DNA of 64,000 nt from Siphonodentalium dalli (taxonomy: Eukaryota > Mollusca > Scaphopoda > Gadilida > Siphonodentaliidae). Both the position numbers and the translations under genes were made by a program. The stretch covers positions 50,214,443 through 50,278,442 of the forward strand of contig CP136068.1 of the NCBI GenBank assembly GCA_032622095.1. The letters run 5' to 3'. The first letter of the stretch is position 1. Each line of letters begins with the position of its first letter. The notes below the pieces were generated by a model, which was not told where the DNA came from, did not search any database, and saw only the letters and a program-made list of their open reading frames with translations. This document shows, one piece after another, positions 104-64,000 of the stretch.

Positions 104-262
104 CGTGACATGGATTCTCTTCGTGTTTAATAGAACGGTCTCTACTGTGGCTGTCATGAACGTTCTGAGGTTGGAAATCTCCTGTTCACCGTAACCACGG
201 ACACGCTCCTGAATGTGTATCCCTGCCTCTTCAATGAACGCCATCAAGTTATGCATGTCAAT
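104..262 (-). CDS. Internal coding exon of an unrecognised gene (gene A)
   Basis: On the minus strand a good 3' splice site (taactgcctttcag) precedes 159 nt with no stop, followed by a good 5' splice site (CACG then gtaagc). The exon is 53 codons, phase 0 to 0. The peptide starts IDMHNLMAFIEEAG and ends TVLLNTKRIHVT; it looks helical and amphipathic, with no cysteine-rich or membrane segment. Upstream exons should lie at higher coordinates and downstream exons left of the window, but I could not identify a convincing upstream exon before 6 kb. I do not recognise the family. That it is coding is likely from both splice signals and the open frame; its function is unknown. Confidence 0.7.
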
Positions 263-20931: not shown

Positions 20932-21030
20932 CTTTCCACTTTCGCTCTTATGTAGAACAGAGCACGCTTCTTCAACCGTCACATTCTTACCAAATAGTAT
21001 ATCAGCATACTCCCTGGGAAATTCCTTCTC
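20932..21030 (-). CDS. Gene C exon 3
   Basis: Minus strand: strong 3' splice site (gatattttattttag), 99 nt (33 codons, phase 0 to 0), 5' splice site GGAAAG then gttagt. The peptide begins EKEFPREYADILFGKNVTVE and ends CSVLHKSESGK. A palindromic transposon is inserted only about 43 bp upstream of the acceptor. No known family recognised. Confidence 0.75.
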
Positions 21031-22979: not shown

Positions 22980-23051
22980 ATTCTTGAAGGCCGCTTTCAA
23001 ATTATCTTTTGTGATTGGATTTCCGTCCCCAATGTTATGCTTGCTGAGCAC
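22980..23051 (-). CDS. Gene C exon 2
   Basis: Minus strand: 3' splice site 'ctgattctatccacag', 72 nt (24 codons, phase 0 to 0), 5' splice site AAGAAT then gtacgt. Peptide VLSKHNIGDGNPITKDNLKA then AFKN. The phase agrees with exons on both sides. Confidence 0.7.
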
Positions 23052-24154: not shown

Positions 24155-24239
24155 CTTCAAGAAAGCGTCTACGGCATCGATGGCCTTCTTGTGTTCAGTT
24201 CTTGCCTTCCTCTTTACTAGATTGAGCTTCCCGCGCTCC
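24155..24239 (-). CDS. Gene C exon 1 (first one found)
   Basis: Minus strand: 3' splice site 'gcctttgatggtttgtag', 85 nt, 5' splice site TTGAAG then gtaagg. It starts with one base completing a codon (incoming phase 2) and ends in phase 0. Peptide ERGKLNLVKRKARTEHKKAI then DAVDAFLK, strongly helical and basic. Upstream exons must lie to the right, beyond the minisatellite and the 13.7-kb element; the only phase-compatible candidate seen is near 40446-40479. Confidence 0.75.
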
Positions 24240-24327
24240 CTACAAACCATCAAAGGCAAAATATTTATTTTAAAGTCGATGTTTAAAATAGGAAACACTA
24301 GATAGTAAAGCAAATATGAAGCAATGA

Positions 24328-24954
24328 ACACTCATACTGAGTCCGTGCCCCCATGACACTCATACTGATTCCGTGCCCCCATAACACTCATACTGAGTCC
24401 GTGCCTACATAACACTCATACTGAGTCCGTGCCTACATAACACTCATACTGAGTCCGTGCCTCCATAACACTCATACTGAGTCCGTGCCTCCATGACACT
24501 CATACTGAGTCCGTGCCCCCATAACACTCATACTGAGTCCGTGCCCATATAACACTCATACTGAGTCCGTGCCCCCATAACACTCATACTGAGTCCGTGC
24601 CTCCATAACACTCATACTGAGTCCGTGCCCCCATAACACTCATACTGAGTCCGTGCCTACATAACGCACATACTGAGTCCTTGCCCCCATAACACTCATA
24701 CTGAGTCCGTGCCTACATAACACTCATACTGAGTCCTTGCCTACATAACGCTCATACTGAGTCCTTGCCCCCATAACACTCATACTGAGTCCTTGCCCCC
24801 ATAACGCTCATACTGAGTCCGTGCCTACATAACACTCATACTGAGTCCTTGCCTACATAACGCTCATACTGAGTCCTTGCATCCATGACACTCATACTGA
24901 GTCCGTGCCTACATAACGCTCATACTGAGTCCTTGCCCACATAACACTCATACT
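24328..24954. repeat. 28-bp minisatellite, left part
   Basis: About 22-23 copies of a 28-bp unit containing CACTCATACTGAGTCCGTGC. Variants CGTGC/CTTGC and CCCCC/CTACA/CTCCA alternate, and CTTGC becomes common toward the right end. The array stops inside a unit, exactly at the left tip of the 13.7-kb element. Confidence 0.95.
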
Positions 24955-38667: not shown

Positions 38668-39368
38668 CTGAGTCCTTGCCCCCATAACACTCATACTGAG
38701 CCCTTGCCCTCATAACACTCATACTGAGTCCTTGCCCCATAACACTCATACTGAGTCCGTGCCTCCATAACACTCATACTGAGTCCGTGCCTCCATTACA
38801 CTCATACTGAGTCCTTGCCCCATAACACTCATACTGAGTCCGTGCCTCCATAACACTCATACTGAGTCCGTGCCTCCATAACACTCATACTGAGTCCGTG
38901 CCTCCATAACACTCATACTGAGTCCGTGCCTCCATGACACTCATACTGAGTCCGTGCCCCCATAACACTCATACTGAGTCCGTGCCTACATAACACTCAT
39001 ACTGAGTCCGTGCCTCCATAACACTCATACTGAGTCCGTGCCTCCATAACACTCATACTGAGTCCGTGCCTACATAACACTCATACTGAATCCGTGCCTA
39101 CATAACACTCATACTGAGTCCGTGCCTCCATAACACTCATACTGAGTCCGTGCCCCCATAACACTCATACTGAGTCCGTGCCTACATAACACTCATACTG
39201 AGTCCGTGCCTACATAACACTCATACTGAGTCCGTGCCTCCATAACACTCATACTGAGTCCGTGCCTCCATAACACTCATACTGAGTCCGTGCCCACATA
39301 ACACTCATACTGAGTCCGTGCCTCCATAACACTCATACTGAGTCCGTGCCTCCATAACACTCATACTA
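38668..39368. repeat. 28-bp minisatellite, right part
   Basis: About 25 copies of the same unit, in the same orientation as 24328-24954. It begins in mid-unit (CTGAGTCC), and its first copies carry the CTTGC variant that is also common at the right end of the left array. Confidence 0.95.
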
Positions 39369-44733: not shown

Positions 44734-45251
44734 ATCTAACTTTTCCGGTTCAATATAATTGTTTAATTGCCAATTTATTTTACAGGCAAATGACAATGCC
44801 AACTATGGGTGATGTTCGATCAATTAAGTGTACTGGATGTATATCTAATGGCACATTCCTCGGGATTTTATTCTGGGTAACATTTTTCTGACAATGCTGT
44901 GTTTTCTCAACAAAATTTATCAATATGATACTTTCATTCTCAGTTTTTGAAGCCACTTCTTCAATTGACAGGGCACGAGGATCTTCGGATTGACTCCAAG
45001 CCACCTCTCCCATGTCAATGACATGAAGATCTTTCAAAAACTGATAATGAAAGTATCATATTGATAAATTTTGTTGAGAAAACACAGCATTGTCAGAAAA
45101 ATGTTACCCAGAATAAAATCCCGAGGAATGTGCTATTAGATATACATCCAGTACGCTTAATTGATCGAACATCACCCATAGTTGGCATTGTCATTTGCCT
45201 GTAAAATAAATTGGCAATTAAACAATTATATTGAACCGGAAAAGTTAGATG
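44734..45251. repeat. 518-bp near-perfect palindrome with exon-like loop
   Basis: Arms of about 208 bp, ATCTAACTTTTCCGGTTC...TTTCATT(C/A)TCAG and the inverse, flank a loop at about 44944-45040. Differences between the arms are only a few bases, so the inversion duplication is recent or maintained by gene conversion. Confidence 0.85.
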
Positions 45252-45740
45252 CAGTCAAGTTTATATTTTAATTGCTTGCATCCAGGATAAGGCATCGAAG
45301 TCACCTCTTCAATTGACAGGGTATGAGGATCTTTAGAATGACTCCAAGTCACCTCTCCCTTGTCAATGACAAGAGGATTTTTCAAAAACTGAGTGAGCAT
45401 GAAAATATCATTTTGATAAGTTTTGACAAGAGGACACAACACTCTCCAAAAAGTATCAACCCATTAGTTATCATATACATGTATAACGGATTTGTGGAAT
45501 GGAACTAACTTCAGAGAAAGTTGGCATTGAAATTCATATATACCGGTACAATAAAATGGCAATGACAATACAAACAATGCTATTATGAATAGAGTTACAT
45601 GCATGTTACATGCATTTTAATAATTGCTCTTATTCTGGAGTCAGCATCGAAGTCACCTCTTCAATTGACAGGGCATGAGGATCTTTGGAATGATTCCAAG
45701 CCACTTCTCCCGCATCAATGACATGAGGATTTTTCGAAAA
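44944..45740 (-). CDS. Three tandem exon-like repeats (about 350-bp period)
   Basis: On the minus strand three copies begin at 45740, 45388 and 45040, each after an acceptor-like 'tgctcag', 'cactcag' or 'ttatcag', and stay open without indels for 33 codons: F(S/L)K.(P/L).VID.GEV then (A/T)W..S.DP..LSIEEV(T/A)S. Copies 3 and 2 run on to stop codons; GAAGAG then gtgact could be a donor. The preceding intron-like sequence is also shared. They could be a tandemly duplicated exon, a decayed gene, or a repeat with accidental coding potential; substitutions are not clearly biased to silent sites. Confidence 0.4.
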
Positions 45741-60404: not shown

Positions 60405-60496
60405 CTCCCAAGCGTCGTGTTTGGATAAACAGGTTTCTCGATCCCCGTTCGACTTTCAAGTCTGTGACGCAATATATCCCGCTCGTTTTCTGCGTA
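60405..60496 (-). CDS. Gene L exon 1 (first one found), beside the 68-bp satellite
   Basis: Minus strand: strong acceptor (catgttttacaattacag) directly followed by YAENERDILRHRLESRTGIE and KPVYPNTTLG. Two donors are possible: GGGAG/gtcagt (phase 2, fits exon 2) or four bases further on, GGTCA/gtgagt (phase 0). The acceptor and first 22 coding bases are the parent of the repeat unit of the adjoining satellite. Protein family not recognised. Confidence 0.65.
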
Positions 60497-62375
60497 CTGT
60501 AATTGTAAAACATGTATAATGAAACGTGATCCGAATTATTAATATCCCGCTCGTCGTCTCCGTACTGTAATTGTAAAACATGTATAATGACACATGATCC
60601 GAATTATTATTAATATCCCGCTCGTCTCTCCATACTGTAATTGTAAATCATGTATAATGACACGTGATCCGAATTATTAATATCCCGCTCGTCGTCTCCG
60701 TACTGTAATTGTAAAACATGTATAATGACACATGATCCGAATTATTATTAATATCCCGCTCGTCTCTCCATACTGTAATTGTAAATCATGTATAATGACA
60801 CGTGATCCGAATTACTAATATCCCGCGCGTCGTCTCCGTACTGTAATTGTAAAACATGTATAATGACACGTGATCCGAATTATTAATATCCCGCTCGTCG
60901 TCTCCGTATGGTAATTGTAAATCATGTATAATGACACGTGATCCGAATTATTAATATCCCTCGCGTCGTCTCCGTACTGTAATTGTAAAACATGCATAAT
61001 GACACGTGATCCGTATTATTAATATCCCGCGCGTCGTCTCCGTACTGTAATTGTAAAACATGTATAATGACACGTGATCCGAATTACTAATATCCCGCGC
61101 GTCGTCTCCGTACTGTAATTGTAAAACATGTATAATGACACGTGATCCGAATTATTAATATCCCGCTCGTCGTCTCCGTACTGTAATTGTAAATCATGTA
61201 TAATGACACGTGATCCGAATTATTAATATCCCGCGCGTCGTCTCCGTACTGTAATTGTAAAACATGCATAATGACACGTGATCCGTATTATTAATATCCC
61301 GCGCGTCGTCTCCGTACTGTAATTGTAAAACATGTATAATGACACGTGATCCGAATTATTAATATCCCGCTCGTCGTCTCCGTACTGTAATTGTAAATCA
61401 TGTATAATGACACGTGATCCGAATTATTAATATCCCGCGCGTCGTCTCCGTACTGTAATTGTAAAACATGCATAATGACACGTGATCCGTATTATTAATA
61501 TCCCGCGCGTCGTCTCCGTACTGTAATTGTAAAACATTCATAATGACACGTGATCCGAATTATTAATATCCCGCGCGTCGTCTCCGTACTGTAATTGTAA
61601 AACATGTATAATGACACGTGATCCGAATTACTAATATCCCGCGCGTCGTCTCCGTACTGTAATTGTAAAACATGTATAATGACACGTGATCCGAATTATT
61701 AATATCCCGCTCGTCGTCTCCGTACTGTAATTGTAAAACATGTATAATGACACGTGATCCGAATTATTAATATCCCGCGCGTCGTCTCCGTACTGTAATT
61801 GTAAAACATGCATAATGACACGTGATCCGAATTATTAATATCCCGCGCGTCGTCTCCGTACTGTAATTGTAAAACATGCATAATGACACGCGATCCGAAT
61901 TACTAATATCCCGCGCGTCGTCTCCGTACTGTAATTGTAAAACATTCATAATGACACGTGATCCGAATTATTAATATCCCGCGCGTCGTCTCCGTACTGT
62001 AATTGTAAAACATGCATAATGACACGTGATCCGTATTATTAATATCCCGCGCGTCGTCTCCGTACTGTAATTGTAAAACATGTATAATGACACGTGATCC
62101 GAATTACTAATATCCCGCTCGTCGTCTCCGTACTGTAATTGTAAAACATTCATAATGACACGTGATCCGAATTACTAATATCCCGCGCGTCGTCTCCGTA
62201 CTGTAATTGTAAAACATTCATAATGACACGTGATCCGTATTATTAATATCCCGCTCGTCGTCCTCGTACTGTAATTGTAAAACATGTATGACACGTGATC
62301 CGAATTATTAATACCCCGCCCTTCGTCTCCGTACTGTATTTATAAAACATGTATAATGACACCTGGTCCGAATTA
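60497..62375. repeat. 68-bp satellite carrying a splice acceptor in each unit
   Basis: About 27 copies of a 68-bp unit. Read on the minus strand each unit contains TTTTACAATTACAG then TACGGAGACGACGAGCGGGA, closely matching the acceptor and exon start of the 60405-60496 exon. Copies differ at a few positions (GCTCGTC/GCGCGTC, CATGTA/CATGCA/CATTCA). The repeated 60-codon frames in it are a by-product. Confidence 0.95.
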
Positions 62376-62697
62376 TTAGTACTCGTGACATTCGAAACTT
62401 GGTAACTGTTTCCGCCATATATATAGAGGGGGTGTCCAACAATTTTCGGGGCACGTATGATGGGGTCCGTAGGTGGTCTAGTGGACACCAAAGGAATTTT
62501 TTTCCACAAATAAAAATATGTCCTAGCTATTTTTGGCCTTAAACTTAGAGAAAATGCCATTTTAACTTCAAAAATGCATTTAGACAGCCGGTATAGATTG
62601 TTTCTTTTTGTAAAATTACCAATGACCCGGTATATGTCAGTCTAGGTCACTCCAAACAAAAATGCATGGACACATTGTATAAGCAATCACTGCCATG
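62376..62697. repeat. Fragment related to the 8.4/9.3-kb repeat
   Basis: 'ttcggggcacgtatgatggggtccgtaggtggtct' and 'aatttttttccacaaataaaaatat' resemble the unit end at 8421-8520. No gene is seen. Confidence 0.35.
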
Positions 62698-62701
62698 TTA
62701 A

Positions 62702-63111
62702 CCCTTTACCCAACAAAACGGCCAAAAACGCCCAAATAAAGCTTCAACAGCCTAAAATATCTTCGGTCTGTCTCAATAACACCATACAAATATGGATATC
62801 ATTGGAACCGGTTCATTGACCACATTGTGATGGTTACAGTTATGCCCTGTGCCAATGCATTCTCTTATATATGCGGGTCGACCATAGGTCGCCTCGCATA
62901 TATAAGAGAATGCATTGGCCTAAAAAAAAATTAAAATTTTTTCTTACATTTGTTAACAATTTTTATAATATTTTTCTACATTCTTTGACAATTTTATCAT
63001 TTTTAATATGTGTTAAGCCAATGCATTCTCTTATATATGCGAGGCGACCTATGGTCGACTCGCATATATAAGAGAATGCATTGGCACAGGGCCGTTCTGT
63101 TGGGTAAAGGG
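62702..63111. mobile_element. piggyBac-like element with two hairpin cores
   Basis: TTAA flanks (62698-62701, 63112-63115), ends CCCTTTACCCAACAAAACGG and CCGTTCTGTTGGGTAAAGGG. Inside are two separate hairpins of 'ccaatgcattctcttatatatgcg' and its inverse, about 110 bp apart. No transposase. Confidence 0.8.
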
Positions 63112-63115
63112 TTAA

Positions 63116-63607
63116 ACTAGGCTAATCGCAAACAGCAACTTGTAATATAGGTAGTTAATAGGAAACAGACAGTAAGTGGTCTAGCCGGACGTCCGGACGT
63201 CTGTTCGTTTCCGGATGATAAATTTAGTAAGTCTGAACTGAATGGAATTCAATTTGGTATGTGGGTTGGCTAGCACACAAAAAAAAACAGGTCAAGTTTG
63301 AATTCGGGTTCCGCCCGCCAATTGTTACCAGATTTATGGCCTTTTCGTTGGAAGTTGCACACATATTTAGTTTCCGGATGATAACTTTAGTAAGTCTGAA
63401 CTGATTGAAATGAAATCTATATTCCCTATAGGGGTTTCTTGTTGTGTATGTGACCGCGCTCCTCTGTCGTGCCCACCCACCCTGAGTGAGCGATTTTGAA
63501 TAAATGTTTGCGATGTTGCATCGAAAATGGTGCTTTGTATTTTTGTCCGTTATTCCGTTAAATCAAGGCATTGCCCACCAATTGATGTAGGAAATCCAAA
63601 TGTCTTT
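63116..63607. repeat. Dispersed repeat with TCCGGATGATAA.TTTAGTAAG tandem
   Basis: 'gtttccggatgataa.tttagtaagtctgaactga' occurs twice, about 170 bp apart. No gene. Confidence 0.5.
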
Positions 63608-63611
63608 TTAA

Positions 63612-64000
63612 CCCTTTACCCAACAAACCGGCCAAAACCGGCCAAATAAAGCTTCAACAGCCTAAAATATCTTCGGTCTGTCTCAATAGAACCATACAAA
63701 TATGGATATCATTGGAACCGGCTCCTTGACCACATTGTGATGGTTACAGTTATGCCCTGTGCCAATGCATTCTCTTATATATACGAGTCAACCATAGGTC
63801 GCCTCGCATATATAAGAGAATGCATTGGCCTAAAAAAAAATCTTTTTTTAACACTTTTTACCATTTTTTCTTACATTCTTTAACAATTTAATAATTTTTA
63901 ATGTGTTAAGCCAATGCATTCTCTTATATATGCGAGGCGACCTATGGTCGACTCGCATATATAAGAGAATGCATTGGCACAGGACCCTTCTGTTGGGTAA
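63612..64000. mobile_element. piggyBac-like element with two hairpin cores, cut by the window end
   Basis: TTAA at 63608-63611, CCCTTTACCCAACAAACCGG start, internal sequence nearly identical to 62702-63111, ending at ...TTCTGTTGGGTAA just before the expected AGGGTTAA. Confidence 0.8.

Follow-up and report, generated by a model that had tools for sequence, protein, structure and literature searches.

How does an exon come to stand at the end of a long row of copies of its own splice acceptor, and what does such a row do to the gene that carries it? The question is raised by a 64,000-nt stretch of the genome of Siphonodentalium dalli (C8:50214443-50278442, hereafter the window), in which a sequence-only reading had described about 27 units of a satellite, each holding an acceptor and an exon-like start, beside a single-copy exon. 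We mapped the array, modelled the gene around it and searched the genome (2.2 Gb in 9 contigs) for related copies, all comparisons being between copies within this one genome.

The Array Includes the Native Acceptor of Exon A

Tandem Repeats Finder delimits the array at 60474-62378, with a period of 68, 28.0 copies and 94% matches. Allowing up to three mismatches, we found 28 acceptor motifs TTTACAATTACAGTA within it on the minus strand, spaced 65-70 bp apart, and three further motifs of this kind on the minus strand of the window outside the array. The estimate of about 27 units is confirmed by these counts, and the boundaries proposed for the single-copy exon (60405-60496) proved exact; the exon and array placed at 60405..62375 are real, with the array extending slightly further, to 62378. 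The exon itself, which we call exon A, forms the final one among the 28 motif sites. The elements of the array, all on the minus strand, are the following:

60497..62378, minus strand: the array beyond the exon, with 27 units of 68 bp except for two of 70 bp and one of 65 bp; AG precedes the exon-like start in 26 of 27
60497..60541, minus strand: intron part of the unit, 45 nt, which holds the true acceptor of exon A, from comparison with the units of both arrays
60474..60496, minus strand: exon part of the unit, that is, the first 23 nt of exon A, from repeat and motif mapping
62375..62381, minus strand: TACTAAT at the distal edge of the array, 42 nt before the first acceptor, a candidate original branch point

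The 68-bp unit is made of 45 nt of intron end and 23 nt of exon start and so crosses the intron-exon boundary; the array is contiguous with exon A, whose native acceptor and first 23 nt are part of it. An AG directly precedes the exon-like start at 27 of the 28 sites, the exception being site 60908. The start of exon A differs from the consensus unit of the window at positions 5, 9, 10, and 14, and its state at position 14 is common to 10 of the 27 units. The intron that holds the array is about 8.6 kb long. This arrangement is not a chance one, because the same layout of exon plus array recurs at a second locus, described below. A structural role at the RNA level was considered and set aside, the folding of two units being unremarkable (z -0.27).

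Exon A Belongs to a Patatin-like Phospholipase Gene

By comparing the two loci we built a model of 11 coding exons, in which exon A is the seventh and the final exon or exons are missing. The exons of this model that lie in the window are:

60405..60496, minus strand: exon A, 92 nt, seventh coding exon, encoding YAENERDILRHRLESRTGIEKPVYPNTTLG plus 2 nt, conserved in the sister gene and nine paralogues
24155..24239, minus strand: exon B, 85 nt, from the two-locus comparison and gene model
22980..23051, minus strand: exon C, 72 nt, from the two-locus comparison and gene model
20932..21030, minus strand: exon D, 99 nt, from the two-locus comparison and gene model
104..262, minus strand: exon E, 159 nt, the last exon modelled, ending at a donor-like site

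Exon A is bounded by the acceptor ACAATTACAG/TAC and the donor GAG/GTCAGT (slashes mark the junctions); it is entered in phase 0 after exon 6, which ends in GFSL with its final base at C8:50283515, and its two leftover bases form an Arg codon with exon B. Because exon E ends at a donor-like site, the model stops short of the true 3' end of the gene. Both the window model (495 aa) and the model of the sister gene (507 aa) keep an open frame, their phases fit and their modelled introns are all GT...AG. The protein of the window copy matches the Patatin domain (PF01734) over residues 93-281 with E=2.1e-25; a weak profile match to a tubulin polyglutamylase subunit (E=0.088) is superseded by it. 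The window model carries EGGGSK, GSSAG, and DGG and the sister model EGGGNK, GTSAG, and DGG, which we take to be the glycine-rich loop, the GxSxG and the DGG motifs of patatin-like phospholipases. Among solved structures, those closest in sequence are bacterial patatin-type phospholipases (seven distinct sequences, best E=8.7e-13); the exon A peptide alone gave no match to solved structures. In an exon scan based on splice scores alone, for which, as throughout, we used a generic matrix, exon A was not outstanding among the candidates, and it is the comparison of the two loci that was decisive. On this comparative ground, exon A is a real coding exon.

Other observations concern the introns and repeats of this gene. 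The intron between exons A and B (window 24240-60404) measures 36.2 kb, versus 1.5 kb in the sister gene, and that between exons D and E (window 263-20931) 20.7 kb versus 0.8 kb. One intron of the window contains two arrays of the same 28-bp unit (24327-24954 and 38668-39367); one of these arrays lies 88 bp ahead of the exon B acceptor, and between the two stands a 77-copy array of a 45-bp unit. The minus strand of the A-B intron has, at 44780-45740, three open frames that resemble one another (GEVAWSQSEDPRALSIEE and the like) and are spaced by about 350 bp. Beyond the window, at C8:50284519-50284602 (in L031), the gene contains a 27-bp unit, made of the last part of exon 5 and its donor, that is repeated three times in frame (9 codons) and is present as one copy in the sister gene; the three equivalent donors, which lie shortly 3' of the DGG motif, could yield in-frame isoforms.

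A Sister Gene Carries a Second Array

A genome search with 141 bases around exon A returned at least 48 matches, and every listed one falls at one of two gene loci; a satellite occurring elsewhere without the exon, for which the sequence-only reading had advised a search, was not found among them. At the second locus (C8:154.131-154.135 Mb), 130 bases match at 90% and are followed by a second array. This locus belongs to a sister gene, 104 Mb from the window gene, with the same 11 coding exons in the same order. The two proteins are identical at 403 of 495 residues (81%), and the two genes differ by dS 0.21 and dN 0.097, giving an omega of 0.46 (bootstrap 0.33-0.65), from which both copies look constrained.

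Besides the exon, the sister array comprises 57 units, each about 71 bp long, which makes 58 units at this locus with the exon counted, versus 28 in the window in the one assembly available. The sequence of the outer edge is alike in both arrays, with TACTAAT at both edges, and we therefore consider the array to be older than the gene duplication. At 44 of the 58 sister sites the AG is present; it is lost at the other 14, 12 of which are among the 14 most distal, and a CATG variant precedes 13 of the 58 starts. Because AG is kept at 44 of 58 sites only, we see no sign of selection preserving these sites in the sister gene.

Another duplication that spans a junction occurs in the sister gene at exon D, whose acceptor and start are covered by a 42-bp tandem repeat with 3.5 diverged copies (L009:5773-5917). 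We considered whether tandem duplications arise preferentially at the splice junctions of this gene and rejected it: repeats overlap 4 of 42 junctions (21 per copy) and about six would be expected by chance, given that repeats with units of at least 15 bp make up 15.5% of the 104-kb region and 12.5% of the 220-kb one. A foldback-like dispersed repeat is indicated by palindromic stretches recognized by eye (GCCAATGCATTCTCTTATATATGCGAGGCGACC...), which are found in the window at 62845-63119 and 63755-64000 and in at least six places of the sister region, and by the window block 63608-64000, which has a 97% similar counterpart in the sister region.

The True Acceptor Changes Along with Its Own Array

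Mean identity between units is 93.7% within the window array and 94.0% within the sister array, versus 86.4% between the two. At a cut-off of 0.5, six columns are diagnostic; three (31, 43, and 44) are near-fixed in both arrays, and the true acceptors match their own array at all three. On the intron side, the window junction shares 93.9% identity with its own units and 84.5% with the sister units, and the sister junction 94.2% with its own units and 82.1% with those of the window. Since each true acceptor resembles its own array and not the other one, it is part of the homogenized block. The exon part behaves differently in the two genes: for the window gene its identity to own units is 83.0%, for the sister gene 97.6%, the first 23 nt of the sister exon being the same as the array consensus. 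Judging from these identities, the exon codons are outside the homogenization in the window gene and within it in the sister gene. The match within each locus need not mean continuing exchange; it could also have come about if each gene amplified a few old copies late and independently.

Nine Array-Free Paralogues Indicate the Direction of Copying

Searched at the protein level, the genome yielded 19 matches at E<=1, nine of which are more distant copies of exon A. In all nine, exon A starts with Tyr after the AG (TAC in eight, TAT in L042), and its acceptor and donor positions are identical to those of the window. None of the nine has a tandem repeat across the exon A acceptor, the upstream intron having been examined over 725-755 bases in eight of them and over the whole 10-kb piece for L014. 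L014 has a two-copy 44-bp repeat that overlaps the end and donor of exon A (L014:4252-4339), and a 34-bp unit repeated 23 times upstream of exon A, clear of the acceptor (L014:2782-3574). As nine paralogues possess the exon without the array, the exon start must be coding sequence older than the array.

The window exon starts with TACGCAGAAAAC, and the sister exon, like the consensus units of both arrays, with TACGGAGACGAC. The GCA of the window exon start also occurs in L041 and L014, and its AAC in L041. In a tree of exon A (11 rows, 92 sites), in which one of seven inner forks is well supported and one branch is long, the window tip has zero length and the sister tip a length of 0.11, so that most differences between the two seem to have arisen on the sister branch. 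The simplest reading of these sequences is that the start of the sister exon was overwritten by its own satellite; that the window copy changed independently is a less likely alternative.

A Proposed History of the Array

We propose the following scenario, to which we give a probability of roughly 70%. The acceptor array would have been copied together with the gene at its duplication, each array changing thereafter as a block with its true site, and it would be mostly tolerated, at the price of some transcript decay. Initially, the patatin-like phospholipase gene would have had an ordinary acceptor in front of coding exon 7. A 68-bp segment, comprising 45 nt of intron end with its AG and 23 nt of exon, would then have been tandemly duplicated, the array having begun before the gene duplication. 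Later changes, through unequal exchange, gene conversion or re-amplification, would have affected each array as a whole, with the true acceptor taking part in them. Exon definition from the donor of exon A would favour the last acceptor, which is probably chosen because it is the nearest to a good donor. A minority of transcripts would probably be spliced to the nearest one to three decoys and then degraded, the array being otherwise tolerated in its intron. The anatomy, the conservation of exon A, the direction of copying, an origin of the array earlier than the gene duplication, the co-variation by locus and the stops for every decoy follow from the sequences themselves, whereas exon definition, leakage, decay and the way in which the units were homogenized are the conjectural parts. 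An origin by tandem duplication of the intron end plus the exon start, with the true exon left at the downstream edge, had already been suggested from the window sequence and is borne out by the sister locus and the nine array-free paralogues. The array had also been described as possibly a tolerated intronic satellite, which of the suggested roles fits best, and which had left out the joint change of a real splice site; a role as a sink for splicing factors found no support.

A bolder version of this scenario, which we put forward as doubtful, is that exchange between the array and the edge of the exon continually rewrites the true acceptor and, in the sister gene, has replaced the first codons of the exon (AEN to GDD), the number of units acting as an adjustable decay sink. 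If it were true, protein sequence and dose would be set partly by satellite turnover and not by point mutation and selection. More generally, where a splice site changes together with a satellite, repeat turnover could alter protein codons and expression. The locus also offers a natural experiment on how a spliceosome selects a single acceptor when dozens are nearly alike; built-in controls are the two gene copies with different array lengths and the nine paralogues without an array.

Decoy Acceptors and Alternative Explanations

By the generic matrix, the true acceptor is no stronger than the decoys: 22 of the 28 window sites, including the true one, score 5.8, four score 4.6, one scores 5.0, and one is broken, a score of 5.8 being reached by 7.7% of the 3013 AGs on the minus strand of the window. 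Upstream of the true acceptor lie 27 sites, 26 of them with AG; splicing to them would add 68 to 1837 nt to the transcript and in every case lead to a premature stop, 26 times within the array and once in exon B. In the sister gene, all 57 upstream sites (43 with AG) likewise lead to a premature stop, 55 in the array and two in exons. Since every decoy brings a stop, a generator of protein isoforms is unlikely, which to that extent weakens the earlier suggestion that the array generates alternative 3' splice sites.

These stops are what would be required by a regulatory decoy, in which the number of units tunes the amount of phospholipase through nonsense-mediated decay, like a dimmer that varies between individuals. 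We regard this explanation as rather improbable. The preservation of AG in the window, the equal scores and the persistence of the array since before the gene duplication agree with it, as does a branch-like yTnAy found 39-45 nt before 22 of the 28 window sites. In the range of 15-55 nt, a second branch-like motif, at 23 nt, stands solely before the true acceptor; the function of these motifs is suggested by their sequence and position. At ABCA7, longer alleles of an intronic variable number tandem repeat (VNTR) are reported to go with lower expression, and the unit-retention isoform is unchanged with VNTR length (PMC5954066); the former speaks for a dimmer and the latter against it. Also against it are the concentration of AG losses among the most distal sister sites, the fact that ordinary homogenization would keep the motif as well, and the likelihood that the nearest few decoys alone lie within the usual exon length of the donor.

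The array could instead have a role at the DNA level, its E-boxes (CACGTG) forming, for example, a cluster bound by transcription factors. The motif is present in most units, with 23 occurrences in the window array (60497-62378) and 71 in the sister array. These counts, however, follow from one founder sequence, and the unit of the window adjacent to the exon has lost the motif (CACGTT), so that we consider a role of this kind very unlikely.

Two further proposals concern exons. According to the first, which we judge highly improbable, the satellite came first and supplied exon A with its acceptor and first eight codons. It would account for the identity of the sister exon start with the consensus of its array, but not for the array-free paralogues, which share the acceptor position, Tyr, then Ser or Ala, and then Glu, Asp or Gln, nor for the GCA and AAC that the window exon retains in common with paralogues. 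According to the second, in the sister gene an AG acceptor and the following CATG unit frame a spliceable stretch of about 70 nt, so that units could serve as cassette exons. In the window array, 111 GT sites reach at best 5.2, at the distal edge, and 3.8 in ordinary units; the donor of exon A scores 8.5, and the 11 donors of the gene (5.5-12.2) all exceed the GT sites of the array. A window unit is therefore unlikely to be an exon of its own. Among the 292 GT sites of the sister array, the best reach 6.3 and 5.9 bits, the latter being the CATG variant (CAT/GTACGG), which is within the range of the gene's real donors; the 11 donors of the sister gene have a lowest score of -0.1 and a next of 5.5, so that the best array site surpasses at least one, and exon C uses GTACGT as its donor. 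Because the CATG variant creates a donor-like site, the argument that units cannot be exons is weaker for the sister gene. But the variant, by removing the AG, abolishes the acceptor of its own site, and cassette exons seem hardly probable to us.

Finally, that the array is a chance satellite or mobile element, with exon A as its degenerate edge and not an exon, would agree with the modest splice scores of exon A but is close to untenable, given 11 in-phase exons common to both loci and the restriction of exon plus array to two genomic places among at least 48 matches.

Comparison with Known Systems

Concerted evolution is a known behaviour of satellite DNA, and the arrays described here resemble other satellites in that units are closer within a locus than between loci; here, however, the homogenized segment takes in the splice acceptor of a gene, to which coding sequence is added in one of the two genes. 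Among the literature matches listed, which come mostly from outside subscription journals, we found no long acceptor array changing together with a true site. In human segmental duplications, internal tandem repeats at exon-intron boundaries average about four copies of 30 bp (PMC2812944). They share with our case their position at exon-intron boundaries of duplicated genes and the capacity to alter splicing, but they are described as modifications of exons and introns, not as long acceptor arrays (PMC2812944). In a potato RdRp gene, a tandem duplication across an intron-exon boundary made a new intron and recruited a donor (PMC4974935). There, as here, the 3' end of an intron and the 5' end of the next exon were duplicated; the potato event was a single duplication, whereas the present arrays have dozens of copies and that of the window is without a good donor (PMC4974935).

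Together with the potato case, the closest parallel is the VNTR in intron 18 of ABCA7, whose 25-bp unit starts with a donor GT and is present in about 12 to 427 copies (PMC5954066). Use of the donor of the next unit leads to a frameshift, and stop-bearing transcripts increase after cycloheximide (PMC5954066). The likeness lies in an array flush with an exon, whose units carry the splice site of that exon; its units hold donors, whereas ours hold an acceptor and 23 coding bases, and, unlike the ABCA7 repeat, our array occurs in both copies of a duplicated gene and co-varies with the true site (PMC5954066). By analogy, the ABCA7 VNTR would be a measured precedent, on the donor side, for the leakage and decay that we propose for the acceptor array of this phospholipase gene.
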